Shown here in pieces: positions 10,251 through 50,843 of a DNA stretch of 51,638 nt. Source of the DNA: Planctomycetia bacterium (GTDB lineage: Bacteria; Planctomycetota; Planctomycetia; Gemmatales; Gemmataceae). The stretch covers positions 1 to 51,638 of the forward strand of contig SXID01000234.1 of NCBI GenBank assembly GCA_005772955.1. The letters are read 5' to 3'. The first letter of the stretch is position 1; every line of letters begins with the position of its first letter. The position numbers and the translations under genes are program-made. Under the pieces are notes generated by a model. The model worked only from the letters and a program-made list of their open reading frames with translations. It was not told the origin of the DNA and did no database searches.

Positions 10251-10290
10251 GCCGCTTGCGGCTTCACGTGCGCCCCGACCGGGGCGTGTG
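10251..10290. repeat. CCGCTTGCGGCTTC repeat followed by a GC hairpin
   Basis: The 18-mer GCCGCTTGCGGCTTCRCG (one mismatch to the copy at 14375) begins at 10251, directly after the FG-GAP gene. A small stem CGCCCC / GGGGCG follows (about 10271-10287). It is located between two convergent genes and may serve both as their 3' hairpin. Confidence 0.6.
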
Positions 10291-12941: not shown

Positions 12942-14372
12942 ATGTCCTTCTTTCCCTGTGGCCTCACGCGGCGCGAACTCATCTGGGAGATGGGCGGCGG
13001 GTTCGCCGGCATCGCGCTCGCGGGTCTGCTCGCGTCCGAGTCGCACGCCGATGCACCGAACGGTTCGCCGCTCGCACCGAAGAAGCCGCACTTCCCCACG
13101 AAGGTGAAGAGTTGCATCTTCCTCATGATGAATGGCGGACCGTCGCAAGTGGACACGTTCGACCCGAAGCCCGAACTGGAGAAGTTCGCCGGAACCGAGA
13201 TTCCGAAGGACAAGAAGTTCATCAACTCCGGCGGCCGAAAGATCGGGTTCCTCACACCCGCGTTCCGCAAATTCCGGCCGGGTGGCAAGAGCGGACTGCC
13301 CGTCTCCGATTACTTCCCACGCGTGCGCGAACACGCGGACAAGCTCGCGGTGATACGGTCGTGCCATACGGACAGCCACGCACACGGCTCGGCACTGGTG
13401 ATGATGAACACCGGCAAGACGTTCATCGGCCGGCCTTCACTTGGAAGCTGGTCGGTTTACGGTCTCGGCACAGTCAACCAGAACCTGCCCGGCTACGTGG
13501 TGCTGATGGACAAGCGCGGCGGCCCGATCAGCGGTCAACCGAACTGGTCGAGCGGGTTCATTTCGGCCGCGTACTCCGGTACGCTGTTCCGCCCAAGTGG
13601 TGATCCCATCCTCGACCTTCGCGGGCCTCAACACGTCACGAAGGAAGCTCAACGCGAACAACTCGACCTGCTCGCGACGTTGAACCAACAGCACATGGAA
13701 TCGCGACCCGGAGGGCGCGAACTCGCGGCGCGTGCGGCGAGTTACGAGCTCGCGTTCAAGATGCAGGCCGCGGCGCCCGAAGCGGTCGATCTCACGAAAG
13801 AATCCACCAAGACACAAGAGCTGTATGGCGTCGGCAAAAAGCCCACCGACGAGTTCGGGCGGAACTGCCTGATCGCGCGACGCCTAGTGGAACGCGGCGT
13901 GCGCTTCGTGCAACTCTACTCCGGCGGCGGGCACTTGGAAGATACCTGGGACGCGCACGCGGGCATCGAGTCGAACCACGGCAAGCACGCGGCGGAGATC
14001 GATCAGCCGATCGCGGCGCTGTTAACCGACTTGGCGGCGCGCGGGTTGCTTGATGAAACGCTAATCGTGTGGGGCGGCGAGTTCGGGCGGATGCCGTTCA
14101 GCGAGGGGAAGAACGAGCCGGGGCGGAACCACAACCCTTACGGCTTCTCGATGTGGCTCGCCGGCGGCGGCGTGAGAGGCGGAATCTCGTATGGCTCAAC
14201 CGACGAACTCGGCTTCGAGGCGGTAGAGAACAAGGTTCACGTCCACGACCTGCACGCGACCATCCTTCACCTGATGGGCCTCGACCACGAGAAACTCACG
14301 TACTTCCACCAGGGGCGACACGAGCGCTTAACGGATGTATACGGAAATGTGGTGAAGGACATTCTTTCGTAG
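12942..14372 (+). CDS. DUF1501 domain protein, copy 2
   Basis: 476 residues. The TAT-like N terminus is TRRELIWEMGGGFAGIALAGL. Family blocks are complete: FLMMNGGPSQVDTFDPKPEL, VMMNTGKTFIGRPSLGSW, TWDAHAGIESNHGKH and VWGGEFGRMPFSEG...GRNHNPYGFSMWLAGGG...VHDLHATILHLMGLDHEKLT. The ATG at 12942 follows GGAG (12932-12935) with a short spacer. It forms the second module with the PSCyt1/DUF1549/DUF1553 gene immediately upstream. Its TAG stop (14370-14372) is the first part of the TAGGCGCCGCTTGCGG... hairpin that follows. Confidence 0.9.
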   Translation: MSFFPCGLTRRELIWEMGGGFAGIALAGLLASESHADAPNGSPLAPKKPHFPTKVKSCIFLMMNGGPSQVDTFDPKPELEKFAGTEIPKDKKFINSGGRKIGFLTPAFRKFRPGGKSGLPVSDYFPRVREHADKLAVIRSCHTDSHAHGSALVMMNTGKTFIGRPSLGSWSVYGLGTVNQNLPGYVVLMDKRGGPISGQPNWSSGFISAAYSGTLFRPSGDPILDLRGPQHVTKEAQREQLDLLATLNQQHMESRPGGRELAARAASYELAFKMQAAAPEAVDLTKESTKTQELYGVGKKPTDEFGRNCLIARRLVERGVRFVQLYSGGGHLEDTWDAHAGIESNHGKHAAEIDQPIAALLTDLAARGLLDETLIVWGGEFGRMPFSEGKNEPGRNHNPYGFSMWLAGGGVRGGISYGSTDELGFEAVENKVHVHDLHATILHLMGLDHEKLTYFHQGRHERLTDVYGNVVKDILS

Positions 14373-14373
14373 G

Positions 14374-14418
14374 CGCCGCTTGCGGCTTCGCGGGGCGCTC
14401 GCGAAGCCGCAAGCGGCG
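14374..14418. terminator. Perfect 19-bp hairpin, GCCGCTTGCGGCTTCGCG element in inverted pair
   Basis: Left arm 14374-14392 and right arm 14400-14418 are perfectly complementary, with a 7-base loop. The stem lies between the convergent DUF1501 and DUF1080 genes and could terminate both. There is no U-tract, and single copies of the same 18-mer lie elsewhere, even inside genes, so it is equally a mobile or amplifiable palindrome. Confidence 0.65.
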
Positions 14419-14429
14419 AGAGACAGCCC

Positions 14430-15233
14430 TCACTTCTTCAGCGGGTGGATCTCGAACTTGCGGACGTACAACTCGAACCCTTCCGTTTGCAGCAGGATCT
14501 TCCCAGCGGCGGGAGTCACGTCGTAAGCGTGGTTCACCTTCACGCCGTTCACGTAGACGGTCAGCTTCGCGCCGTCGGCCACACACTCCACCTTCGTCCA
14601 CTCGCCGAGTTTGCTCTCCACGTCGTCCTTGCCGTAGGTGTCGAGCAGTTCCTTGAACTCGGGGTCGTGCTTGTTCCACCACAATTGCCGGCCCGTGAAC
14701 ACCGTCTTCTCGCCGCCTTCCTTCCAGCGCGGGCGCTTGTCCGCGCCGAGAACGATGTCGCTCGTGAGCTGCACGGGAATCACTTTATCCTTCTCGTCCT
14801 TACCGCGAATCGTGATCAGGTCGCCGCAGCAACCCTGCGCCAACTGACACTCGATGCACGCCATCCACGTGCCGTTCGCGCCGCCGTCGGGACCGGTCGC
14901 GTGGAGCAGTAAGCCGGAGTTGCGGACGTACTTCCCGCCGTCCGTCTTCTTGCCCCACTTGTATTCCACTACGACGCGGTAGTCCTTGTACGCCTTGTCG
15001 GTCGCGATATATCCGAAGCCGTCGCCGGTGATGTGCAGGTTGCCGTCGGCCACGCGAAACACCTTTTTCGGGTCTTCGCGTTTTGAGTCCTTCAGCCACG
15101 TGGTCAACCCGCGCAGATCTTTGCCGTTGAACAGTGCGGCGGTTTCCTTCGGGCTAACCGGTTCGTCGGCAGCGAGCGCAGCGCCGACAGGCGCGAAGGC
15201 AACAACCACAAGCGCGAAGATGAAACGAGTCAT
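14430..15233 (-). CDS. DUF1080 (3-keto-disaccharide hydrolase / lectin-like) secreted protein
   Basis: 267 residues. A signal peptide (MTRFIFALVVVAFAPVGAALA) leads to a single DUF1080 domain, a concanavalin-like jelly roll. Recognisable blocks are ETAALFNGKDLRGLTTWL near the start, YKDYRVVVEYKWGKK, RNSGLLLHATGPDGG, WMACIECQLAQG, and the final GKILLQTEGFELYVRKFEIHPL. The family is abundant in planctomycetes; some members hydrolyse 3-keto-glycosides. Extra cysteines (IECQLAQGCCGD) may form disulfides. The ATG at 15233 begins the signal peptide and follows AGAGGA; the longer frame upstream is antisense to the SDR gene. It is divergent from the kynurenine operon. Confidence 0.85.
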   Translation of the reverse strand: MTRFIFALVVVAFAPVGAALAADEPVSPKETAALFNGKDLRGLTTWLKDSKREDPKKVFRVADGNLHITGDGFGYIATDKAYKDYRVVVEYKWGKKTDGGKYVRNSGLLLHATGPDGGANGTWMACIECQLAQGCCGDLITIRGKDEKDKVIPVQLTSDIVLGADKRPRWKEGGEKTVFTGRQLWWNKHDPEFKELLDTYGKDDVESKLGEWTKVECVADGAKLTVYVNGVKVNHAYDVTPAAGKILLQTEGFELYVRKFEIHPLKK

Positions 15234-15332
15234 GCGAGAGTCCTCTGAGGGGTCCGCACACGGTAACACGATCGCGGTTCGTGGTGGTAGGATGTTCTTG
15301 TGAGGCGCGCCGCGTTCCCATAGCATCCGATC

Positions 15333-16085
15333 ATGACAAAAGACCTCTCCGGTAAGAAGGCTCTGGTTTGTGGCGGGTCGCAGGGCATCGGCCTCGCAGC
15401 GGCACGCGCCTTCGCCGCGCAAGGAGCAGCAGTTACCGTGCTCGCTCGCTCCGAGCCACCGGGCGAACACGGCTTTGCATTCCTCAGGGCTGACCTGCAA
15501 CAAATCGAAGACCTGATTCCCACGCTTGAGAAGCAGTTGCAGACACCGCCCGCGTTCCACATCCTCGTGAACAACAGCGGCGGCCCGCCGCCCGGCGCGG
15601 TGGTCGATGCAACCGTGGATCAGTTCCTCACCGCGTTTCGGCAACAACTCCTCGCGTCGCATCTGCTGGTGCAATGGCTTCTGCCCGCGATGAAGGCGCA
15701 CGGTTACGGCCGCGTTATCAACGTCATCTCCACGAGCGTGCGCGAACCGATCGAAGGCTTGGGGGTATCGAACACGATTCGCGGGGCCGTGGCGTCGTGG
15801 TCGAAGACGCTGTCGCGCGAAGTGGGCAAGTTCGGTATCACGGTGAACAACGTGCTGCCCGGTGCGACGCGAACCGGCCGCCTGGAATCGATCATCAAGC
15901 GGAAGGCCGCGACCGGCACGCCACAGGAAGAGATCGAAGCGAAGATGCGTGCGGAGATTCCCGCGGGCCGGTTCGCGGAGCCGGCAGAAGTCGGGGCGGT
16001 GATCGCGTTCCTCGCGTCGCCCGCGGCGGGGTACATTTCCGGCACGAGCATCCCAGTGGATGGCGGGAGGTTGCACTGTGTCTGA
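15333..16085 (+). CDS. Short-chain dehydrogenase-like protein lacking the catalytic Tyr-Lys pair
   Basis: 250 residues with an SDR Rossmann fold: a glycine motif (CGGSQGIG, residues 13-20), NNSG (80-83, in place of NNAG), a catalytic-type Ser at S133, and a normal C terminus (GYISGTSIPVDGG). Where SDRs carry YxxxK, 13 residues after the Ser, this protein has S146-N-T-I-R150, so both the Tyr and the Lys are gone. It is the first gene of the kynurenine/3-hydroxyanthranilate cluster and overlaps the next gene by 8 bases, so it should be co-expressed. Its role is unknown. It may be a binding or non-redox SDR acting on an unstable semialdehyde, or an SDR of the 'BKR-like' subgroup with a non-canonical active site. 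The ATG at 15333 is used. Confidence 0.8.
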   Translation: MTKDLSGKKALVCGGSQGIGLAAARAFAAQGAAVTVLARSEPPGEHGFAFLRADLQQIEDLIPTLEKQLQTPPAFHILVNNSGGPPPGAVVDATVDQFLTAFRQQLLASHLLVQWLLPAMKAHGYGRVINVISTSVREPIEGLGVSNTIRGAVASWSKTLSREVGKFGITVNNVLPGATRTGRLESIIKRKAATGTPQEEIEAKMRAEIPAGRFAEPAEVGAVIAFLASPAAGYISGTSIPVDGGRLHCV

Positions 16086-17532
16086 GCAACCGGCGTTCTT
16101 GAACTTCATTAACGGTTCGTTCGCCGCGCCCGCGAGCGGCGGCTACTTCGCCGTCCACGAACCGGCAACCGGTCAGATCTACGCAACCGTCGCCGCTTCC
16201 GATTCACGCGACGTGGCGCGAGCGTGCGAGGCCGCGGAGAAGGCTGCGCCCGCGTGGTGCGCGATGCCCACCGAGAAGCGCGCCGCGATTCTGGACACCA
16301 TCGCGAGCAAGCTGGAATCGCAACTCGAACGCTTCGCACAGGCGGAATCAAAAGACACCGGCAAGCCAGTGTCGCTCGCGCGCGCCGTGGACATTCCGCG
16401 AGCGGTGTCGAACTTCCGCTTCTTCGCGGGCGCGATTCAACACTTCGCGAGCGAATGCCACCCGACTTCATCGGATGTGCTGAACTATACGCTGCGCCAC
16501 CCGCTCGGCGTGGTTGGGTGTATCTCGCCGTGGAACCTGCCGCTGTACCTGTTCACCTGGAAGATTGCCCCCGCGCTCGCGGCCGGGAACTGCGTGGTCG
16601 CGAAACCGAGCGAAGTCACGCCCGCGACCGCGACGATGCTCGCGGAACTGTGCGCCGAAGCCGGCCTTCCGCCCGGCGTGCTGAATGTCGTTCACGGAAC
16701 TGGCCTCGAAGTGGGCGAAGCGATCTGCACGCACCCCACCATCAAGGCGATCTCGTTCACCGGCGGTACGAAGACCGGCGCGCGGATCGCGTCAGTCGCG
16801 GCCCCGCTGTTCAAGAAGCTCTCGCTGGAGTTGGGTGGAAAGAATCCAGTCCTGATCTTCGACGACGCGGACTTCGACGCGATGCTCGCCACCACGCTCC
16901 GCTCGTCGTTCAGCAATCAAGGCGAGATCTGTCTGTGCGGGTCGCGCATCTTCGTGCAGGACGGGATCTACGATCATTTCAAGGCGGAATTCGTGAAACG
17001 CGCGAAGGCGCTCCGCGTCGGCGACCCGCTTGACGCGAGTACCGAGCAGGGCGCACTGGTGTCCGAGCAGCACCACGCGAAGGTGCGAAGCAATCTCGAT
17101 CTCGCACGCAATGAAGGTGGCACGATCCTCTGCGGTGGCGAAGTGATTACGCCGCCGGGCCGGTGCGCAAAGGGCTGGTTCCTCGCGCCCGCGGTGATGG
17201 AAGGGCTTCCGCACGCGTGCCGCACGAGCCAGGAGGAAATCTTTGGCCCGGTCGCGTCGCTGTACCGCTTCAAGACGGAGGAAGAGGCGGTGACACTCGC
17301 GAACGACACACCCTACGGTCTCGCGTCCGTCGTGTGGACGCGCTCGCTCGACCGCGCCCACCGTGTAGCCGCGAACCTACACGCCGGCATCACCTGGGTG
17401 AACTGTTGGATGGTTCGCGATTTGCGAACGCCCTTCGGTGGGGTAAAACAGTCCGGTGTCGGGCGCGAGGGCGGATGGGAAGCCTTGCGATTCTTCACCG
17501 AACCGAAAAACGTGTGCCTCAAGTTGTCGTGA
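16078..17532 (+). CDS. 2-Aminomuconate 6-semialdehyde dehydrogenase (ALDH family)
   Basis: 484-residue aldehyde dehydrogenase that should oxidise 2-aminomuconate semialdehyde to 2-aminomuconate with NAD+. The active site is intact: N153 in SPWNLPL, E251 in LELGGKNP, and nucleophile C285 in NQGEICLCG. The C-terminal TPFGGVKQSGVGREGG, whose Arg binds the substrate carboxylate in characterised enzymes, is also present. The ALDH8/2-hydroxymuconate-semialdehyde branch is suggested by these blocks and confirmed by context, as it lies between an SDR and a RidA deaminase in a kynurenine cluster. The GTG at 16078 is chosen because GGGAGG lies 8 bases before it; it overlaps the SDR gene. The equivalent gene is called nbaE or amnC in proteobacteria. 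Confidence 0.88.
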   Translation: MSEQPAFLNFINGSFAAPASGGYFAVHEPATGQIYATVAASDSRDVARACEAAEKAAPAWCAMPTEKRAAILDTIASKLESQLERFAQAESKDTGKPVSLARAVDIPRAVSNFRFFAGAIQHFASECHPTSSDVLNYTLRHPLGVVGCISPWNLPLYLFTWKIAPALAAGNCVVAKPSEVTPATATMLAELCAEAGLPPGVLNVVHGTGLEVGEAICTHPTIKAISFTGGTKTGARIASVAAPLFKKLSLELGGKNPVLIFDDADFDAMLATTLRSSFSNQGEICLCGSRIFVQDGIYDHFKAEFVKRAKALRVGDPLDASTEQGALVSEQHHAKVRSNLDLARNEGGTILCGGEVITPPGRCAKGWFLAPAVMEGLPHACRTSQEEIFGPVASLYRFKTEEEAVTLANDTPYGLASVVWTRSLDRAHRVAANLHAGITWVNCWMVRDLRTPFGGVKQSGVGREGGWEALRFFTEPKNVCLKLS

Positions 17533-17961: not shown

Positions 17962-17988
17962 GAGCTGCTTGCGACGCCGCATGCGGCG
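17962..17988. repeat. Palindrome in the RidA-HAAO junction
   Basis: A diverged TGCTTGCG motif precedes a perfect 14-base palindrome (CGCCGCATGCGGCG, 17975-17988) in the 45-base gap. It resembles the CCGCTTGCGGC family. The HAAO ribosome site (ACAGGAG, 17994-18000) follows directly. Confidence 0.5.
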
Positions 17989-18006: not shown

Positions 18007-18525
18007 ATGCTCCGTGCGCCGCTGAACTTCAAGCGATGGATCGACGAGCACCGCCCCCTGTTGAAGCCGCCGGTCGGCAACAAGATGGTGTTCGAGGACG
18101 CGGACTTCATCATCATGGTGGTCGGGTCGAATACGCGAAAAGACTTCCACGTCAACGACGGCGAAGAGTTCTTCTATCAGCTCGAAGGCGACATCATCTT
18201 GAAGGTGCAGGACGAGGGGAAGATCGTCGATATTCCGATTCGCGAGGGCGACGTCTTCTTGCTACCGCCGCGCGTACCGCACTCGCCGCGCCGCCCGGAG
18301 AATAGCATCGGCCTCGTGATCGAGAAGAAACGCGAAGCGAACCAAGTTGACGGCTTCCAGTGGTACTGCGAAGGGTGCGGGGCGAGGCTGCACGAGGAGT
18401 TCGCGCACATCACGAACATCGTCACGCAACTGCCGCCGATCTTCACGCGGTTCTACGGCGACGAAGCGAAACGCGTGTGCACGGCGTGCGGCGCACGGTT
18501 CACCGATCCTGCGAAGCCGAAGTAG
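18007..18525 (+). CDS. nbaC: 3-Hydroxyanthranilate 3,4-dioxygenase
   Basis: 172-residue cupin that opens the ring of 3-hydroxyanthranilate to 2-amino-3-carboxymuconate semialdehyde using Fe(II). All catalytic residues of the bacterial enzyme are visible: R44, H48 and E54 in NTRKDFHVNDGEE, then H92, R96 and E106 in PHSPRRPENSIGLVIE. H48, E54 and H92 are the iron ligands. The C-terminal rubredoxin-like second iron site of bacterial HAAO is also complete (C121, C124, C158, C161). Length matches the family (about 174). The ATG at 18007 follows ACAGGAG. The TAG stop (18523-18525) lies inside the left arm of a 26-bp perfect hairpin. Confidence 0.95.
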   Translation: MLRAPLNFKRWIDEHRPLLKPPVGNKMVFEDADFIIMVVGSNTRKDFHVNDGEEFFYQLEGDIILKVQDEGKIVDIPIREGDVFLLPPRVPHSPRRPENSIGLVIEKKREANQVDGFQWYCEGCGARLHEEFAHITNIVTQLPPIFTRFYGDEAKRVCTACGARFTDPAKPK

Positions 18526-18583
18526 TAGGCACACTCCGTGTGCCGTTCCGACAACCGCGGCACACGGAGTGTGCCTACTACTT
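18520..18583. terminator. 26-bp perfect hairpin at the HAAO stop codon
   Basis: Arms 18520-18545 and 18558-18583 are exact complements (TAGTAGGCACACTCCGTGTG / reverse), with a 12-base loop. The left arm contains the HAAO TAG and each arm contains its own small palindrome (CACACTCCGTGTG). On the plus strand CTTT follows, a poor U-tract. Inside an operon it may attenuate transcription or protect the upstream mRNA; it also fits the REPIN pattern (two REP-like ends, inverted). Confidence 0.6.
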
Positions 18584-18592
18584 TGAGAACCC

Positions 18593-19603
18593 ATGCTCAC
18601 CGTCGACGTTCACACGCACATTCTGCCGCAGCACCTGCCGCGATGGGCCGACCGCTTCGGCTACGGCGGCTTCGTCGAACTCGCGCACCACGCCCCCGGT
18701 TGCGCGCACATGATGATCCACGACAAGTCCTTCCGCGAAGTCGAGATGAACTGCTGGAGCGCCGAGAAGCGGATCGAGGAATGCGAAGCGTGTGGCGTTC
18801 GCCTGCAAGTGCTCTCGACCGTGCCGGTGATGTTCAGCTACTGGGCGAAGCCGGAACACGGCTACGAGGTCTCGCGGTTCCTCAACGACGACATCGCGGA
18901 GACCGTGCGGAAGTACCCCAAGCGGTTTATTGGTCTGGGCACGCTCCCATTACAAGACCCAGAACGCGCAGTGCGCGAGTTAGACCGCTGTGTGAACGAG
19001 CTCGGCTTTCGCGGCGTGCAGATCGGGTCGAACGTCAACCAGACGAATCTGAACGCGGCGGAATTGTTCCCGGTATTCCAGCGCGCGGAAGAGATCGGCG
19101 CCGCGGTGTTCGTTCACCCGTGGGAGATGTTCGGCAACAACGAACTGAACCAATACTGGATGCCGTGGTTGGTCGGGATGCCAGCGGAGACGACACGCGC
19201 GATCGTGTCGCTGATCTTCGGCGGTGTTCTGGAGCGGCTCCCGAAGCTACGGATCGCGTTCGCGCACGGTGGCGGGTCGTTCCCCGCAACCGTCGGCCGC
19301 ATCGAACAGGGCTTCCGCTGTCGCCCGGATTTGTGCGCGATCCACAACCAGGTGAACCCGCGTGAGTACCTGCGCCGCATCGTCGTCGATTCGCTCGTCC
19401 ACGACGCTCGCGCGCTGCAATACCTGATCGACGTGATGGGTTCGGACCGCGTCACGCTCGGCACCGACTACCCGTTCCCGCTCGGCGAGGCGGAACCCGG
19501 CGCGCTCATCCGCTCCATGAACCTGCCACGCGAAACCCAAGAAGACCTGTTCTTCCGCACCGCGTGTTCGTGGCTCGGTGTGGCACCGGAACAACTGGAA
19601 TAA
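18593..19603 (+). CDS. 2-Amino-3-carboxymuconate-6-semialdehyde decarboxylase (ACMSD)
   Basis: 336-residue amidohydrolase-fold decarboxylase that converts ACMS to 2-aminomuconate semialdehyde, diverting the intermediate from quinolinate. Zinc ligands are visible: H7 and H9 (VDVHTHILP), H175 (VFVHPWEMF) and D292 (TLGTDYPFPLGE). The catalytic HGGGSFPATVGRIEQGF block, with its His and Arg, is present. Length is as in Pseudomonas and human ACMSD (332-336). Its presence next to the aminomuconate enzymes argues for tryptophan catabolism rather than NAD synthesis. The gene follows the hairpin; the ATG at 18593 is 9 bases after it. Confidence 0.95.
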   Translation: MLTVDVHTHILPQHLPRWADRFGYGGFVELAHHAPGCAHMMIHDKSFREVEMNCWSAEKRIEECEACGVRLQVLSTVPVMFSYWAKPEHGYEVSRFLNDDIAETVRKYPKRFIGLGTLPLQDPERAVRELDRCVNELGFRGVQIGSNVNQTNLNAAELFPVFQRAEEIGAAVFVHPWEMFGNNELNQYWMPWLVGMPAETTRAIVSLIFGGVLERLPKLRIAFAHGGGSFPATVGRIEQGFRCRPDLCAIHNQVNPREYLRRIVVDSLVHDARALQYLIDVMGSDRVTLGTDYPFPLGEAEPGALIRSMNLPRETQEDLFFRTACSWLGVAPEQLE

Positions 19604-19604
19604 G

Positions 19605-19655
19605 CGCCGCTTGCGGCCTCGCGTGTGTTGGAGTACCGCGACGCCGCAAGTGGCG
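19605..19655. repeat. CCGCTTGCGGC inverted pair in the ACMSD-KynB junction
   Basis: Arms 19605-19623 and 19637-19655 pair with two mismatches around a 13-base loop. The left arm matches the 18-mer of 14375. It sits immediately after the ACMSD TAA and 17 bases before the next ATG. Confidence 0.65.
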
Positions 19656-19671
19656 AACCAATGACAACACC

Positions 19672-20418
19672 ATGTACCTACACATCCCTCGCGGGAACTC
19701 CGCCGACATCTCGATTCCGCTCGACCCACACGGGCCGCAGCCGAACGCCTACGGCGTTCCGCCTGCAACCGCTCGCCCGTATTCCGGCGACGGCTTCACG
19801 CTCGACACGCGGCAAGGCGGTTCGTGCAACTGCGAGGTCATCCACGTCGTCCCACACTGCCACGGAACGCACACCGAGAGCGTCGGACACATCACCACCG
19901 AGCGGTTTCCAATTACTGCGGTGCAACTCCCACTGCTCTTGTCGTGTTCGGTCATCTCGGTGACACCCGAAGGCCGCGAGATTCGCGCCGATGCAATCGA
20001 ACGCGCCACAGCCCGCATTCCGGCAGAGTTCCTCGATGCGCTCGTCGTACGCACGCTGCCGAATTCCGGCGACAAAGCCACGCGGCGGTGGGAAAATGCC
20101 ACCACGCCATACTTCGCACCCGAAGCGATGGCAGTAATCCGCGCCAAGGGGATTCAACACCTGTTGGTCGATCTGCCGTCGCTCGACCCTCTGTATGATG
20201 ACGGACGACTCGCGGCGCATCGCGTGTTCTGGGACATGCCGCCCGGCTCGAAAGAGTTGCCGAGCGAAGGCGCACGCCAGCGCACGGTGACGGAGATGAT
20301 CTACGTTCCCGACGACGTGCCGACCGGGCGCTATATGCTCACGATTCAGCTTCCGCACATCGTCTCCGACGCGGTTCCGTCTCGCCCGATCCTGTTCTTT
20401 CTGGACGAGGACGAATGA
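19672..20418 (+). CDS. kynB: Kynurenine formamidase (cyclase family, KynB-type)
   Basis: 248 residues of the metal-dependent 'cyclase' fold. The characteristic HxGTHxE motif is present (PHCHGTHTESVGHI); the His residues and the acidic residue bind the two metals. Downstream features are LVDLPSLDPLYDDG and HRVFW, typical of KynB. It would hydrolyse N-formylkynurenine to kynurenine and formate. The motif has Glu-Ser-Val in place of the commoner Asp-x-Pro, so it is a somewhat divergent member; the cluster context makes the assignment likely. ATG at 19672; an ATG at 19661 is out of frame. It overlaps kynU by 4 bases (ATGA). Confidence 0.85.
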   Translation: MYLHIPRGNSADISIPLDPHGPQPNAYGVPPATARPYSGDGFTLDTRQGGSCNCEVIHVVPHCHGTHTESVGHITTERFPITAVQLPLLLSCSVISVTPEGREIRADAIERATARIPAEFLDALVVRTLPNSGDKATRRWENATTPYFAPEAMAVIRAKGIQHLLVDLPSLDPLYDDGRLAAHRVFWDMPPGSKELPSEGARQRTVTEMIYVPDDVPTGRYMLTIQLPHIVSDAVPSRPILFFLDEDE

Positions 20419-21680
20419 CGCTCGATGAACTCCGCGAACACGCGGCCGAACTCGACCGGAATGACCCCCTCACACAGTTCCGCGACCGGTTCTGCATCCC
20501 ACGCCACACCGACGGCACGGAGGTCGCATACCTGTGCGGCAACTCGCTTGGCCTCGCACCGAAAGCCGCTCGCGCGACCGTTGGGCAAGAGTTGGTCGCG
20601 TGGGAGAACCTCGGCGTCGAAGGGCACTTCAAGCACGAGCGGCCGTGGGTGTCGTTTCACGAACTGTTCGCGACACACCTCGCACAGATCGTCGGCGCGA
20701 AGCCGTACGAAGTCGTCGCGATGAACACGCTCACAGTAAACCTTCACCTGATGCTCACGAGTTTCTACCGACCGAACTCGCGGCGGTTCAAGGTACTCGT
20801 CGGGCACACGGCGTTCCCCTCGGATCGGTATGCGATCGCTTCGCAAATCGCCCTACGCGGCTATTCCCCTGACGAAGCGATCGTGACTGCCAAGCCGCTT
20901 GCGGCTTCGCGAGTGCTCCGCACCGAGGACGTTGTTGAGTTGATCGAACAACACGCTGGCGAACTGGCACTCGTGCTGATGGACGGCGTGAACTACTACA
21001 CCGGGGAGTTGATCGACATCGCGGCCATCACGGAATCAGCGCACCGGCACGGGATCGTCGCGGGGTTCGATCTCGCGCATGCGGCCGGCAACGTGCCGCT
21101 CGCGCTGCACGACTGGAACGCCGACTTCGCCGTGTGGTGCCACTACAAGTACCTCAACGGCGGGCCGGGGTGCGTCGCCGGGTGCTTCGTTCACGAGCAT
21201 CACGGCCTCGCCCGCGAACCGCTTCCGCGAATGGCCGGTTGGTGGGGGCACGACAAACACAGTCGGTTCGGGATGGGACCGGAGTTTGAGCCAATCCCCG
21301 GCGCGGAGGGTTGGCAACTGAGCAACCCGCCGCTGTTCTCGCTCGCGGCGTTGTTGCCGGCGCTCGAACTGTTCGCGGAATCCGGAATGGACCGCCTTCG
21401 CGCGAAGAGCGAAGCCCTCACGGGGTTCCTCGAACACGCGCTGCGAGAGCTGTTCCCGGAGTGGGTCGAAATCATCACGCCGAGTGAACCGGCACGGCGC
21501 GGGTGTCAGTTGTCCGTTCGCGTGAAGCGCGACGCGAAGTCAGCGTTCGCGTCGCTCGTCGCGAACGGCGTGATCTGCGACTGGCGCGAACCAGACGTGA
21601 TCCGCTTGGCTCCGGTGCCGCTGTACAACCAGTTTGCCGATGTTGTGCGAGTCGCGGAGGTGTTGTCGTGTGCGAAGTAA
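20415..21680 (+). CDS. kynU: Kynureninase
   Basis: 421-residue PLP enzyme that cleaves (3-hydroxy)kynurenine to (3-hydroxy)anthranilate and alanine. Fold-type I landmarks are present: the PLP Asp in FDLAHAAGN, the Schiff-base lysine K245 in CHYKYLNGGPG, and RMAGWWGHD. The start overlaps kynB (ATGA) and the end overlaps kmo by 13 bases, implying translational coupling. Within the gene an exact 18-base copy of the dispersed palindrome (20894-20911) encodes part of AKPLAASRVL, a surface-like stretch; the reading frame is not disturbed. Confidence 0.95.
   Translation: MTLDELREHAAELDRNDPLTQFRDRFCIPRHTDGTEVAYLCGNSLGLAPKAARATVGQELVAWENLGVEGHFKHERPWVSFHELFATHLAQIVGAKPYEVVAMNTLTVNLHLMLTSFYRPNSRRFKVLVGHTAFPSDRYAIASQIALRGYSPDEAIVTAKPLAASRVLRTEDVVELIEQHAGELALVLMDGVNYYTGELIDIAAITESAHRHGIVAGFDLAHAAGNVPLALHDWNADFAVWCHYKYLNGGPGCVAGCFVHEHHGLAREPLPRMAGWWGHDKHSRFGMGPEFEPIPGAEGWQLSNPPLFSLAALLPALELFAESGMDRLRAKSEALTGFLEHALRELFPEWVEIITPSEPARRGCQLSVRVKRDAKSAFASLVANGVICDWREPDVIRLAPVPLYNQFADVVRVAEVLSCAK
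20894..20911 (+). repeat. 18-mer GCCGCTTGCGGCTTCGCG inside kynU
   Basis: Exact match to the left arm of the hairpin at 14375-14392, here used as coding sequence (PLAAS in frame). Single arm only; no inverted partner next to it. Confidence 0.7.
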
Positions 21681-23017
21681 CACTGGTCGGCGGCGGGTTG
21701 TCCGGTGCGCTGCTCGCGCTGATGCTCGCCCGCCGGGGCGTGAAGGTCACCGTGTACGAACGCCGCGCGGACCAGCGCGCCGACCAGATCGAAGAAGGCC
21801 GGTCGATCAACCTCGCGCTCTCCGCTCGCGGGATTCACGCGCTCTCGCTCGTCGGTCTCGATTCGGAAGTGCTGGCGCGGGCGATTCCGATGCGCGGCCG
21901 CTACATCCATCCTGTCAGCGGACCATGTTCGCTCATTCCTTACGGCCGCAAGCCGGACGAGGTGATTCACTCCGTCAGCCGGCGCGGTCTGAACGCTCAT
22001 CTTCTGGACGCGCTCTCGCGCGAGGCGAACGCGACCGTTCATTTCCAACACCGCTGCACTCACTACAACCCCCGTGCCGGCGCTCTCACCGTCTACGACG
22101 AAGCAACCACGAACGAGTTCACCACAGAGGTGTCTTGCGTGATCGGCACCGACGGTGCCGCGTCCGCGGTGCGTGATGCGATGATGCACTCATCACGGAT
22201 GAACTACTCGCAGGCGTATCTCGAGCACGGCTACAAGGAACTCACGATTCCGCCCGCGGCCGACGGCTCATTGAGGATCGAACCGAACGCGCTGCACATC
22301 TGGCCGCGCGGCGGGTTCATGATGATCGCGCTGCCCAATTTAGATCGCTCCTTTACGTGTACGCTGTTCTTGCCACACGTGGGCACGCCGGGCTTCGATC
22401 AGCTTTCCACTCGCGAAGCCGCGAGCGGCTTTTTTGCCCGGACATTTCCTGATGCGCTGCCGCTACTCCCCAACCTCGAAGACGAATTCTTCCGCAACCC
22501 GACCGGCGGCCTCGTGACCGTGCGCTGTTCGCCGTGGCATTTCGACGGCCGCGCACTTCTACTCGGTGACGCGGCACACGCGATCGTCCCATTCTTCGGC
22601 CAGGGAATGAACTGCGCGTTCGAGGACTGCGAGGTGTTGCTGAACCTCTTCGACCAGCACGCGGCGAACTGGGACGAGGTGTTCCCACGGTTCTTTGAAG
22701 CACGGAAGCCGAACACGGATGCGATCGCGCAACTCGCGCTGGACAATTTCGTGGAGATGCGTGACACGTCCGGCGACCCGCGATTCGCGCGGAAGCGGCA
22801 ACTCGAACACAAACTCGAAGAGCGATTCCCCGGGCAGTTCGTCTCGAAGTACGCGATGGTGTCGTTCCACCGCGTCCCGTACCTCGAAGCGCTCGAACGC
22901 GGACGCGTGCAGGACCGCATCCTGATGGACGTGTGTTCGCGCGCAAGTTCGCTCGCGGAGATCGACGCGGACGCGGTGTTCGCGTGCCTGCACGAGGCGA
23001 TCGGTAACGTATCGTAA
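21668..23017 (+). CDS. kmo: Kynurenine 3-monooxygenase
   Basis: 449-residue FAD hydroxylase. The N terminus has the GxGxxG-type FAD motif (VGGGLSGALLALMLARRG, from residue 7), then the group A blocks EEGRSINLALSARG and the FAD-binding LLGDAAHAIVPFFGQGMNC (about 298-316), characteristic of KMO. It makes 3-hydroxykynurenine from kynurenine with NADPH and O2. The C terminus is hydrophilic, unlike the membrane-anchored eukaryotic enzyme. The GTG at 21668 is selected because GGAGG lies 7 bases upstream and the FAD motif starts directly; it overlaps kynU by 13 bases. A near-copy of the 18-mer palindrome (22412-22429) lies in the reading frame. Confidence 0.93.
   Translation: MCEVTLVGGGLSGALLALMLARRGVKVTVYERRADQRADQIEEGRSINLALSARGIHALSLVGLDSEVLARAIPMRGRYIHPVSGPCSLIPYGRKPDEVIHSVSRRGLNAHLLDALSREANATVHFQHRCTHYNPRAGALTVYDEATTNEFTTEVSCVIGTDGAASAVRDAMMHSSRMNYSQAYLEHGYKELTIPPAADGSLRIEPNALHIWPRGGFMMIALPNLDRSFTCTLFLPHVGTPGFDQLSTREAASGFFARTFPDALPLLPNLEDEFFRNPTGGLVTVRCSPWHFDGRALLLGDAAHAIVPFFGQGMNCAFEDCEVLLNLFDQHAANWDEVFPRFFEARKPNTDAIAQLALDNFVEMRDTSGDPRFARKRQLEHKLEERFPGQFVSKYAMVSFHRVPYLEALERGRVQDRILMDVCSRASSLAEIDADAVFACLHEAIGNVS
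22412..22429 (-). repeat. 18-mer palindromic repeat inside kmo (one mismatch)
   Basis: CGCGAAGCCGCGAGCGGC is the reverse complement of the 14375 arm with one change, followed by TTTTTT. It codes for a short stretch around REAASGFF. Together with a T-run it could also act as an internal pause site. Confidence 0.65.
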
Positions 23018-30674: not shown

Positions 30675-32387
30675 ATGTCCGACGAAACCGCACCGAAGTT
30701 GTCTCCCGTTGAAGGCCACAAGGAAGAGGGTCGCTACCTTCGCGGCACGCTCGCGGAGGAGATCGCGGACCCCACGCTCGACCACCTCAGCGACGCGAAC
30801 AAGAGCCTCATCAAGTTCCACGGGAGCTACGAGCAGGAAGACCGCGACGCCCGCAAGACCCGCGGTAAGACCGGTGTGGGCAAGGCGTACATGTTCATGA
30901 TCCGCTTGAAGTTGCCCGGCGGGAAGTTGACCGCGGACCAGTACCTCGCGATGGATCACATCGCGGGCCAGTACGCGAACGGCACACTCCGCATCACGAC
31001 ACGTCAGAGCTTCCAGTTCCATGGCGTGCTGAAGGGCAACCTCAAAGCGACGATAGCCGCGATCAACACATCGCTGGTCACCACGCTGGGCGGGTGCGGC
31101 GACGTGAACCGCAACGTGCTGACGTGCCCGGCGCCCCTACCCGACCCGACCCGCGCCCAGATGATGCGCGACTGCGAAGCGGTCGCGGCGCATCTCGCAC
31201 CGAAAGCTGGAAAGCAGGCGTATCACGAAATCTGGCTCAATGGCGAACCGGTGAAGTTCGGCGATGACGCAGGCGCAGAGGAACCGATCTACGGGAAAAC
31301 GTACCTGCCGCGAAAGTTCAAGGTGGCGTTCTCGTTACCGCACGACAACTGCACCGACATCCTCGCGCAGTGCCTCGGCTTCCAGGCGATTAGCGAGAAG
31401 GGCAATCTGATCGGCTACAACCTGTTCGCGGGTGGCGGGCAGGGTCAGACGAACTCGAACCCCGACACCTACCCGCTGCTCGCGCAACCGGTCGGGTTCA
31501 TCGACCCCAGCGAAGTGCTGGCCGCGTCGGAAGGCACCATCAAGTTGTTCCGCGATCACGGCGACCGCACCAACCGCAAGCGGGCGCGTCTGAAATACGT
31601 GATGAAGGATTGGGGCTTGGAGAAGTTCCGCGAAGTGTTCTACCGCGACTACTTCCCGCACCCGGCGCGGTCCGTGCGCGAGGTCGCGATCACGGGTCTC
31701 GATCTGCACCACGGCTGGCAAAGCATGGGGGGCGGGAAGTTCTTCTTGGGCCTCTCAGTCGAAAATGGTCGCATCAAAGACGAAAGCCACTTGCGGCTTC
31801 GCAGTGGTCTTCGCGCGATCGTGGCGAAGTACAAGTGCGAAGTGCGCCTCACCACGCAGCAGGATATCATGCTGTGCGGGCTGTCGATGGACGAACGCGC
31901 GGGCGTCGATTCGATGCTGAGCGAGTACGGCGTTCCGCGGCCCGAAACGCTGTCGCAGGTACAGCGACTGAGCATGGCGTGCCCCGCAGTGCCGACGTGC
32001 CCGCTCGCGCTCACCGAAAGCGAGCGCGCGCTGCCGGCGCTGGTCGATCAACTGGAAGTGGCGCTGAAGGAAGTGGGTTTGGCCGACGAGCCGATCAGCG
32101 TGCGGATGACCGGTTGCCCGAACGGGTGCGCGCGCCCGTACCAGAGTGAGGTCGGGATTGTGGGTCGCGGCGGCACGAAGTACACGCTGTACATCGGCGG
32201 CGACAGCTACGGCCGCCGGCTGAACACCGAGATTCAGGACAGCGTGCCGTTCGACCAACTCGTGCCGAAGTTGTCGAAGGTGTTCGCGGCGTTCGCGACG
32301 GAGCGCACTAAGGGCGAACTCTTCGGCGACTACTGCACGCGTATCGGGATGCCGAAACTGAAGGAACTGATCGGCGCGCCGGCGTAA
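30675..32387 (+). CDS. cysI: Assimilatory sulfite reductase hemoprotein (siroheme/4Fe-4S)
   Basis: 570 residues, exactly the length of E. coli CysI. The siroheme/[4Fe-4S] cysteines are C436 and C442 (CPAVPTCPLALTESER) and C481 and C485 (GCPNGCARPY), almost superposable on E. coli C434/C440/C479/C483. The N-terminal half contains TLRITTRQSFQFHG and GGCGDVNRNVLTCPAP, the siroheme-contact segments. It reduces sulfite to sulfide with six electrons; no cysJ flavoprotein or other sulfate-assimilation gene is in the window, so electrons may come from ferredoxin or a distant partner. ATG at 30675. A degenerate copy of the CCGCTTGCGGCTTCGCG repeat lies in frame at 31787-31804. Confidence 0.93.
   Translation: MSDETAPKLSPVEGHKEEGRYLRGTLAEEIADPTLDHLSDANKSLIKFHGSYEQEDRDARKTRGKTGVGKAYMFMIRLKLPGGKLTADQYLAMDHIAGQYANGTLRITTRQSFQFHGVLKGNLKATIAAINTSLVTTLGGCGDVNRNVLTCPAPLPDPTRAQMMRDCEAVAAHLAPKAGKQAYHEIWLNGEPVKFGDDAGAEEPIYGKTYLPRKFKVAFSLPHDNCTDILAQCLGFQAISEKGNLIGYNLFAGGGQGQTNSNPDTYPLLAQPVGFIDPSEVLAASEGTIKLFRDHGDRTNRKRARLKYVMKDWGLEKFREVFYRDYFPHPARSVREVAITGLDLHHGWQSMGGGKFFLGLSVENGRIKDESHLRLRSGLRAIVAKYKCEVRLTTQQDIMLCGLSMDERAGVDSMLSEYGVPRPETLSQVQRLSMACPAVPTCPLALTESERALPALVDQLEVALKEVGLADEPISVRMTGCPNGCARPYQSEVGIVGRGGTKYTLYIGGDSYGRRLNTEIQDSVPFDQLVPKLSKVFAAFATERTKGELFGDYCTRIGMPKLKELIGAPA
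31787..31804 (+). repeat. Diverged 18-mer palindromic repeat inside cysI
   Basis: GCCACTTGCGGCTTCGCA differs from the 14375 arm at two positions, in frame within cysI (around ESHLRLRSGL). It is weaker than the kynU copy, and chance or codon bias could explain it. Confidence 0.4.
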
Positions 32388-35593: not shown

Positions 35594-35752
35594 GTTGCAT
35601 CTCAAGGTAGGCAACTCGCTCCGCGAGTTGCACGGGAACGCGCGTTGTGCGTTGCATCTCAAGGTAGGCAACTCGCTCCGCGAGTTGCGCGGGAACGCGC
35701 GTTGTGCGCTCCGCCGTTGCGAAGGTGTCACTCGCGGAGCGAGTGACCTACC
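35594..35752. repeat. REPIN-like element with a 57-bp tandem duplication
   Basis: Two 57-base units (35594-35650 and 35651-35707) differ by one base. Each holds GGTAGG-CA-ACTCGCTCCGCGAGT, a small hairpin. The element ends at 35752 with the inverted counterpart ACTCGCGGAGCGAGTGACCTACC. The ends GGTAGG...CCTACC are inverted repeats with a nested palindrome, as in REPINs. A second copy without the duplication is at 50701-50793. The outer ORF reading (MRSAVAKVSLAERV...) is repeat-coded and not part of scpA. Confidence 0.85.
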
Positions 35753-37372: not shown

Positions 37373-37456
37373 CAAGGAGAAGGGAAGAAGGGGAGACAAG
37401 GAGAGAAAGCCAAGATTGGTTTTCTCTCCTTGTCTCCCCTTCTCCCTTCTCTTCAA
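37373..37456. terminator. Long purine/pyrimidine inverted repeat between convergent genes
   Basis: A left arm of about 40 bases of G/A-rich sequence (37373-37413, AAGGAGAAGGGAAGAAGGGG...) pairs with the C/T-rich right arm (37416-37456) with a few mismatches. The HEAT gene's stop (TGA, 37455-37453) is in the right arm. It may terminate both convergent genes, and the purine strand could also form triplex DNA. Confidence 0.65.
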
Positions 37457-50674: not shown

Positions 50675-50700
50675 CAGCCAACGTGTGTTCCGTTGCCGTT

Positions 50701-50793
50701 CAAGGTAGGCAACTCGCTCCGCGAGTTGCGCGTTGGCGGTCATGGTGCGTTGGTCTGTCGCGAAGGTGTCACTCGCGGAGCGAGTGACCTACC
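50701..50793. repeat. REPIN-like element, second copy
   Basis: Begins CAAGGTAGGCAACTCGCTCC (50701) and ends GAGCGAGTGACCTACC (50793). Both ends are the same as those of the element at 35594-35752. The centre differs, and this copy lacks the 57-base duplication. It lies upstream of the terminator of groEL. Confidence 0.85.
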
Positions 50794-50795
50794 TT

Positions 50796-50843
50796 AAAAC
50801 ACCCGCGGCCCGGTTACTCGTCGTGAGTAACCGGGCCGCGGGT
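50796..50843 (-). terminator. Rho-independent terminator of groEL
   Basis: On the minus strand the perfect 19-bp stem ACCCGCGGCCCGGTTACTC / GAGTAACCGGGCCGCGGGT (arms 50825-50843 and 50801-50819, 5-base loop) is followed by TGTTTTA. It lies 25 bases after the groEL stop. Confidence 0.9.

Follow-up and report, generated by a model that had tools for sequence, protein, structure and literature searches.

The window, a stretch of 51,638 nucleotides from a planctomycete of the family Gemmataceae, carries on its plus strand kynU, encoding kynureninase (20415-21680, with KYNU_C and Aminotran_5 domains), and kmo, encoding an FAD-binding mono-oxygenase (21671-23017; FAD_binding_3 was detected with the longer ORF 21503-23017, and the gene, overlooked by our home-made gene caller, was added by hand). 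Both genes contain a short palindromic unit, here called R1, which reads GCCGC-TT-GCGGC and then TTCGCG, frequently with AG or GG next. The kynU copy (20894-20911, plus strand) is exact and codes for K-PLAASR, and the kmo copy (22412-22429, minus strand) has one mismatch and codes for REAASG. The same kynurenine region holds an R1 inverted pair at 19606-19654 (19606-19623, plus, one mismatch; 19637-19654, minus, two mismatches), lying between an amidohydrolase ORF (18593-19603) and a cyclase-like ORF (19564-20418, whose start our gene caller places at 19672). Elsewhere in the window are an exact inverted pair, or REPIN-like doublet, at 14375-14417 (14375-14392, plus; 14400-14417, minus) between an ORF ending at 14372 and the ORF 14430-16109; a single unit at 10251-10268 (plus, one mismatch), intergenic according to the home-made caller; a weak R1-like unit, also intergenic, at 17970-17987 (minus, three mismatches); and a two-mismatch match at 31786-31803 (plus) inside cysI (ORF 30675-32387). 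As single-stranded DNA, the doublet at 14375-14417 is predicted to form a 20-bp stem with a 5-nt loop at -31.1 kcal/mol (z -6.75 for the fold of 14370-14422); the lone kynU unit folds no better than its shuffles (z -0.31). The initial annotation had listed seven places for this repeat, and all were recovered, some of them one base away, along with two more, the weak unit at 17970 and the minus-strand unit at 19637 that pairs with the one at 19606. Its claim that such a number is far beyond chance is borne out: nine matches at up to three mismatches compare with a mean of 0.37 (maximum 2) in 100 dinucleotide shuffles.

The genome-wide count that the initial annotation had proposed as a check finds 370 R1 matches at up to two mismatches (188 + 182) in the 5.93-Mb genome, vs. 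three (1 + 2) for the reversed pattern. In an 847-kb sample made up of the window and 40 stretches of the genome, R1 words are the top over-represented 12- and 14-mers (not 8- and 10-mers), and R1 at up to two mismatches occurs 48 times in 213,904 intergenic bases vs. 11 times in 633,213 bases of CDS. The genome search yielded 78 exact copies in all: 62 lie between genes, 42 of these as members of inverted pairs, and 16 lie within predicted CDS. A set of 167 places at up to two mismatches, in which exact copies are over-represented owing to the choice of stretches, divides into 132 intergenic, 34 coding and one at a gene edge. These assignments are those of the home-made caller, which gives the gene holding two of the coding copies a score of only 24. 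Of the 59 sample copies at up to two mismatches, 32 stand in inverted pairs, 12 pairs with tails inward and 5 with tails outward. R1 shows several of the features by which REP and REPIN families are recognized, namely more than 100 copies, hairpin-forming inverted doublets, a mostly extragenic location, and a RAYT gene flanked by the repeat. The CGTC ending that marks one class of REPs is not among its features, since 24 of 43 exact cores terminate in CTTC and 5 in CGTC; nor was any conserved tag seen across 37 aligned copies, with GTAG or CTAC near 10 of 110 cores.

The intergenic copies are unevenly placed. Convergent spaces hold 1.0 per kb (15 in 15.1 kb), tandem spaces 0.30 (23 in 77.7 kb) and divergent spaces 0.12 (4 in 32.9 kb), and the nearest gene end is a 3' end in 31 of 42 cases. 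Such a bias would suit intergenic pairs retained mainly as RNA hairpins (terminators or mRNA stabilizers) with any mobility in the past, as would the several R1-rich genomes described below that have no close RAYT gene. We consider this reading unlikely: it leaves the RAYT flanks and the coding copies unaccounted for, and an equal position bias, which counter-selection elsewhere can produce, is published for REPs generally in the accessible portion of PMC3733652.

A RAYT-type (Y1_Tnp) transposase gene, of the sort that the initial annotation had suggested looking for, is present in the genome and flanked by R1. Y1_Tnp is found at eight places, six of them above the Pfam cut-off. The RAYT-like ORF at locus L032 (contig C234) scores 28 bits against Y1_Tnp (cut-off 23); its best NCBIfam hit is NF047646, yet at 43.9 bits, under the cut-off of 80, and a search of solved structures returned no relative at E 0.01. 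The stretches MPDHVH and YI(K/E)(R/K)NP, which we take to be the sites of the HUH motif and the catalytic tyrosine, are kept in all five of L032 and its four close orthologues. At L032 an R1-core inverted pair lies upstream and an R1 unit lies 7 bases downstream of the stop codon. R1 occurs on both sides of the gene in five of five cases, our own and four at 59-68% identity (in genomes G014, G004, G015 and G003), where a flank means up to three mismatches of the 18-mer or up to one of the 12-nt core; one flank of L115, the G014 gene, is reached only by allowing three mismatches. Among more distant homologues (12 rows, 11 distinct genes; 29-50% identity), only two have a one-mismatch R1 core within 200 bp. 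Three of the distant homologues were checked for inverted repeats and have other palindromes, that of L138 having a GGCTTGCGGC stretch in common with R1. Copy number and RAYT linkage together suggest that R1 is mobile, and it is very probably the unit of a REP/REPIN-type family dependent on the RAYT-type transposase at L032.

Across 25 genomes of the family, R1 counts are two-peaked, with 10 rich genomes (63-371) and 15 at background (0-16). With an identity threshold of about 50%, a RAYT is found in 6 of the 10 rich genomes vs. 1 of the 15 poor ones (Fisher p 0.007); with a threshold of 59%, the figures are 4 of 10 vs. 1 of 15 (p 0.12), both values being uncorrected for kinship. Two of the six at about 50%, those of G021 and G022, have no R1 flanks, and the G022 gene is partial and contains a stop. 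Four genomes are R1-rich with no close RAYT (G001, G008, G010, and G018, the last only 65% complete), and G003 has a close RAYT with only 11 R1 matches. RAYT presence and R1 copy number agree only loosely across genomes; gene loss, incomplete assemblies, or a different RAYT are possible reasons for the mismatches.

R1 could instead be a signal maintained by selection or by biased uptake, whether a DNA uptake sequence or a motif for recombination or chromosome organization, its coding copies having arisen by point mutation. Uptake sequences also show inverted pairs close to gene 3' ends, and the copies in kynU and kmo are length-neutral, as motifs evolved by substitution would be. This explanation is nevertheless very unlikely, given that R1 flanks a specific transposase clade in five of five genes, that its presence is patchy inside one genus, and that coding copies fall mostly in one phase with amino acids changed wholesale (see below). 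A density of 370 in 5.9 Mb is, moreover, low by uptake-sequence standards.

Within the CDS of the sample, R1 occurs eight times at up to one mismatch, vs. a mean of 0.4 (maximum 2) in 60 synonymous-codon shuffles and none when codon order is shuffled. At up to two mismatches the figure is 11 vs. 2.2 (maximum 7) in 633 kb of CDS, so a lone two-mismatch coding match such as that in cysI is within reach of chance. A single reading phase accounts for 28 of the 34 coding copies, read as PLAAS-like residues on one strand and AKPQAA-like residues on the other (p 6e-9 against an expectation of one third, paired copies not being independent). Hosts with Pfam support include PutA, an AcrB-type pump, SelB, an AMP-binding enzyme and an E2 acyltransferase, together with MBOAT, PSCyt2/PSD1, Methyltransf_32 and Spermine_synth proteins; the PSD1 and PSCyt2 domains suggest a planctomycete related to Gemmata. 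In the host proteins R1 probably sits in tolerant loops, "loop" being a reading based on alignments and variability. The R1 unit is stop-free in all six frames, and intergenic doublets are open in a mean of 5.2 of six frames (n = 17), vs. 3.8-3.9 for random intergenic 61-mers. Stop-free frames may favor entry into genes but are not required for it. None of the 17 doublets of the sample lies in CDS; coding doublets do occur elsewhere in the genome. The initial annotation had proposed a dispersed sequence that actively spreads and can enter genes in frame. That the sequence is dispersed and occurs in frame within genes is borne out, and the spreading itself is what copy number and RAYT linkage would suggest.

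That the coding matches reflect mere chance, or codon usage in conserved enzymes, is extremely unlikely: for the coding set as a whole it is ruled out by the synonymous shuffle (8 vs. 0.4), and the kynU and kmo residues are unlike those of repeat-free orthologues. For cysI it is probably true, as that match has two mismatches and falls in a conserved stretch, with 2.2 such matches expected per 633 kb of CDS. Every one of the 17 other genomes whose orthologue extends over the site has the motif xR(L/M)R(S/A)G and differs only in the residues before it (the G018 orthologue does not cover this part), and the match in our genome consists mostly of the conserved LRLRSG stretch. The initial annotation counted cysI among the hosts and named residues conserved in all orthologues as the result that would tell against a copy; this is the result obtained, and the cysI match is probably not a repeat copy.

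In kynU and kmo, comparison with orthologues points to real R1 copies in which residues have been substituted with little or no change in length, rather than simply added as the idea of entry into genes might suggest. The kynU sequence PLAASRV is found in G000 (the genome of the window) and in G001, and seven repeat-free orthologues have, at equal length, P-x-x-G-E-type residues there or, in the case of the 52%-identical outgroup G027, RPGSEL. In G018 and G010 the copy has diverged to LAASHV and is followed by a stretch six residues shorter. G000 and G001 likewise share the kmo sequence REAASG (G001 being two residues shorter close by), and G003 has a related RDAASG; seven repeat-free orthologues have other residues at the site, and six of the seven are of the same length. 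Simple insertion is unsupported for either gene, since repeat-free orthologues of equal length exist.

A similar pattern is seen in other single coding copies. Of 23 such copies, 11 were compared in length with repeat-free orthologues (kynU, kmo, C8, C123_6454, C85_63631, C33, C74, C123_8093, C180, C108 and C129), in alignments that used differing relatives and no statistical test; the remainder are cysI (probable chance), C30, C229 and C237 (no clear repeat-free orthologue), and C258, C194, C85_96179, C40, C51, C68, C196 and C248. Although the R1 unit is 6-8 codons long, the net change in length is 0 in five, at most 3 residues in five, and +6 in one. Equal lengths are seen for the PSCyt2 protein (vs. 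G012, G001 and G015), MBOAT (vs. G001) and SelB (vs. six repeat-free genomes), and the differences for six other single copies are +2, -1, +1, +3, -3 and +6. SelB offers the widest view. Its stretch is 38 residues long in G000 with R1, and likewise in repeat-free G006, G003, G002, G017, G008 and G004; it is 2 residues longer in G010 with R1, and reaches 83-142 residues in G001, G012, G007, G016 and G005, which have larger inserts. The SLPF residues beside the G001 insert are also present in G000, and the G001 insert itself contains a one-mismatch R1 match. These counts omit 4 of 17 SelB loci that could not be parsed (10 of 17 with a stricter motif), as was also the case for 9 of 16 PutA loci.

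The stretches that hold R1 in G000 carry other palindrome-like inserts in G001 in six hosts (SelB, the pump, PutA, the AMP-binding enzyme, C108 and C129), and in G012 in SelB and the AMP-binding enzyme. On the SelB alignments, insertion followed by deletion is a possible origin of single coding copies; no clean empty site for an R1 doublet was found. As a separate observation, the C229 copy (G000, L224) and its counterpart in G001 (L276) share one site but face opposite ways, as would follow from a flip of the palindrome, in genes of a paralogous family whose orthology is uncertain.

Taken as a RAYT-dependent family, R1 would behave as follows. The L032 transposase would copy single-stranded R1 hairpins into new places, and the majority of copies landing in genes would be purged. 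Copies would survive where they encode PLAAS or AKPQAA within tolerant loops, perhaps aided by six stop-free frames. Intragenic doublets may afterwards collapse or be cut down to one unit; alternatively, a single unit may take the place of local sequence directly. Either course would leave loops near their original length. One specific form of replacement, in which RAYT-made single-stranded DNA would anneal, at the replication fork, to a partly matching stretch and be copied in, overwriting coding sequence much as in oligo recombineering, strikes us as rather unlikely.

R1 belongs to a known kind of element, because intragenic REPs and Rickettsia palindromic elements have already been published. 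It resembles the REP/REPIN and RAYT system of Pseudomonas fluorescens SBW25, as described in the accessible part of PMC3116915, in being a short palindrome with hundreds of copies, hairpin doublets, RAYT flanks and a mostly intergenic location. It differs from the SBW25 REPs in having no GTAG tag and in that 16 of its 78 exact copies fall within predicted CDS; excerpts of the same report give 1,067 occurrences of the SBW25 16-mers, only 14 of which overlap genes. A role for GTAG in the cleavage of REPs by TnpA-REP is described in the available text of PMC8266576. Intragenic GTAG/CGTC REPs, dimers included, are reported from several species, most of them in O. terrae and R. conorii, and for those in genes of known proteins flexible linkers or loops were suggested (PMC3733652, in the sections available). 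Like these, R1 units and dimers lie within genes of known proteins; unlike these, so far as those sections describe them, R1 cores are mostly CTTC-ended (24/43) and single genic units are nearly length-neutral. Rickettsia palindromic elements, according to the portion of PMC10969869 at hand, similarly place a palindrome in frame within unrelated host proteins, but they are inserted sequences of about 150 bp, whereas R1 units are 18-24 bp and linked to a RAYT-type gene. The TIRYT/TIRtron elements in the same excerpts of PMC3733652 also pair a RAYT-like transposase with non-GTAG flanking repeats that form families; R1 differs from them in being short and having many coding copies. R1 is unusual in two ways: its coding copies are nearly length-neutral, and the palindromes that occupy a given enzyme loop turn over within the genus. 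Searches of an open-licence library turned up no report of the R1 family, of near length-neutral coding copies, or of these elements in the genus. Short mobile palindromes are usually viewed as intergenic, yet the RAYT-linked R1, open in six frames, occurs in core enzymes, and in relatives other palindromes occupy the same loops of these enzymes. Since both R1-bearing and R1-free relatives are available, the manner in which selfish palindromes enter proteins (insertion vs. overwriting) can be put to the test.

Two further palindromic families occur in the genome. R2 (the CTCGCGGAGCGAGT family) forms GTAG-tagged inverted repeats resembling classical REPINs at window positions 35604-35752 and 50699-50798, carries the tag in 15 of 17 exact copies, and flanks a second RAYT-type transposase gene, L037. 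The R2 unit is open in three of six frames and its doublets in 1.4 of six (n = 10), vs. 2.8 for random 110-mers; all 18 tagged units are intergenic, and none of 10 doublets in the sample lies in CDS. R2 was considered as an internal control that avoids genes, but this use is weakened by an excess of bare R2 cores in CDS (9 vs. 1.35, maximum 5, in 20 shuffles). R3 (CCCTTCTTAGGGGAGGGG) has 140 genome matches at up to two mismatches, and 13 of its 21 sample copies are in predicted CDS, vs. 0.6 by synonymous shuffle, coding for peptides such as PLPPAPSPKKGGG...PPPFLGEGVGGRGS (examples are at L041, L050, L054, L055, L056 and L065, e.g. L041:10753-10852). Its six coding doublets are open in only 2-3 of six frames. 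The argument from six open frames is thus incomplete, because R3 and bare R2 cores also exceed the shuffle in CDS. Two other inverted repeats were noted in the window: a perfect 26-base repeat with a 12-base spacer at 18520-18583, at the end of the ORF 18007-18525, and a 31-base repeat at 37383-37446 that is 94% complementary, with a 2-base loop and a purine-rich left arm.
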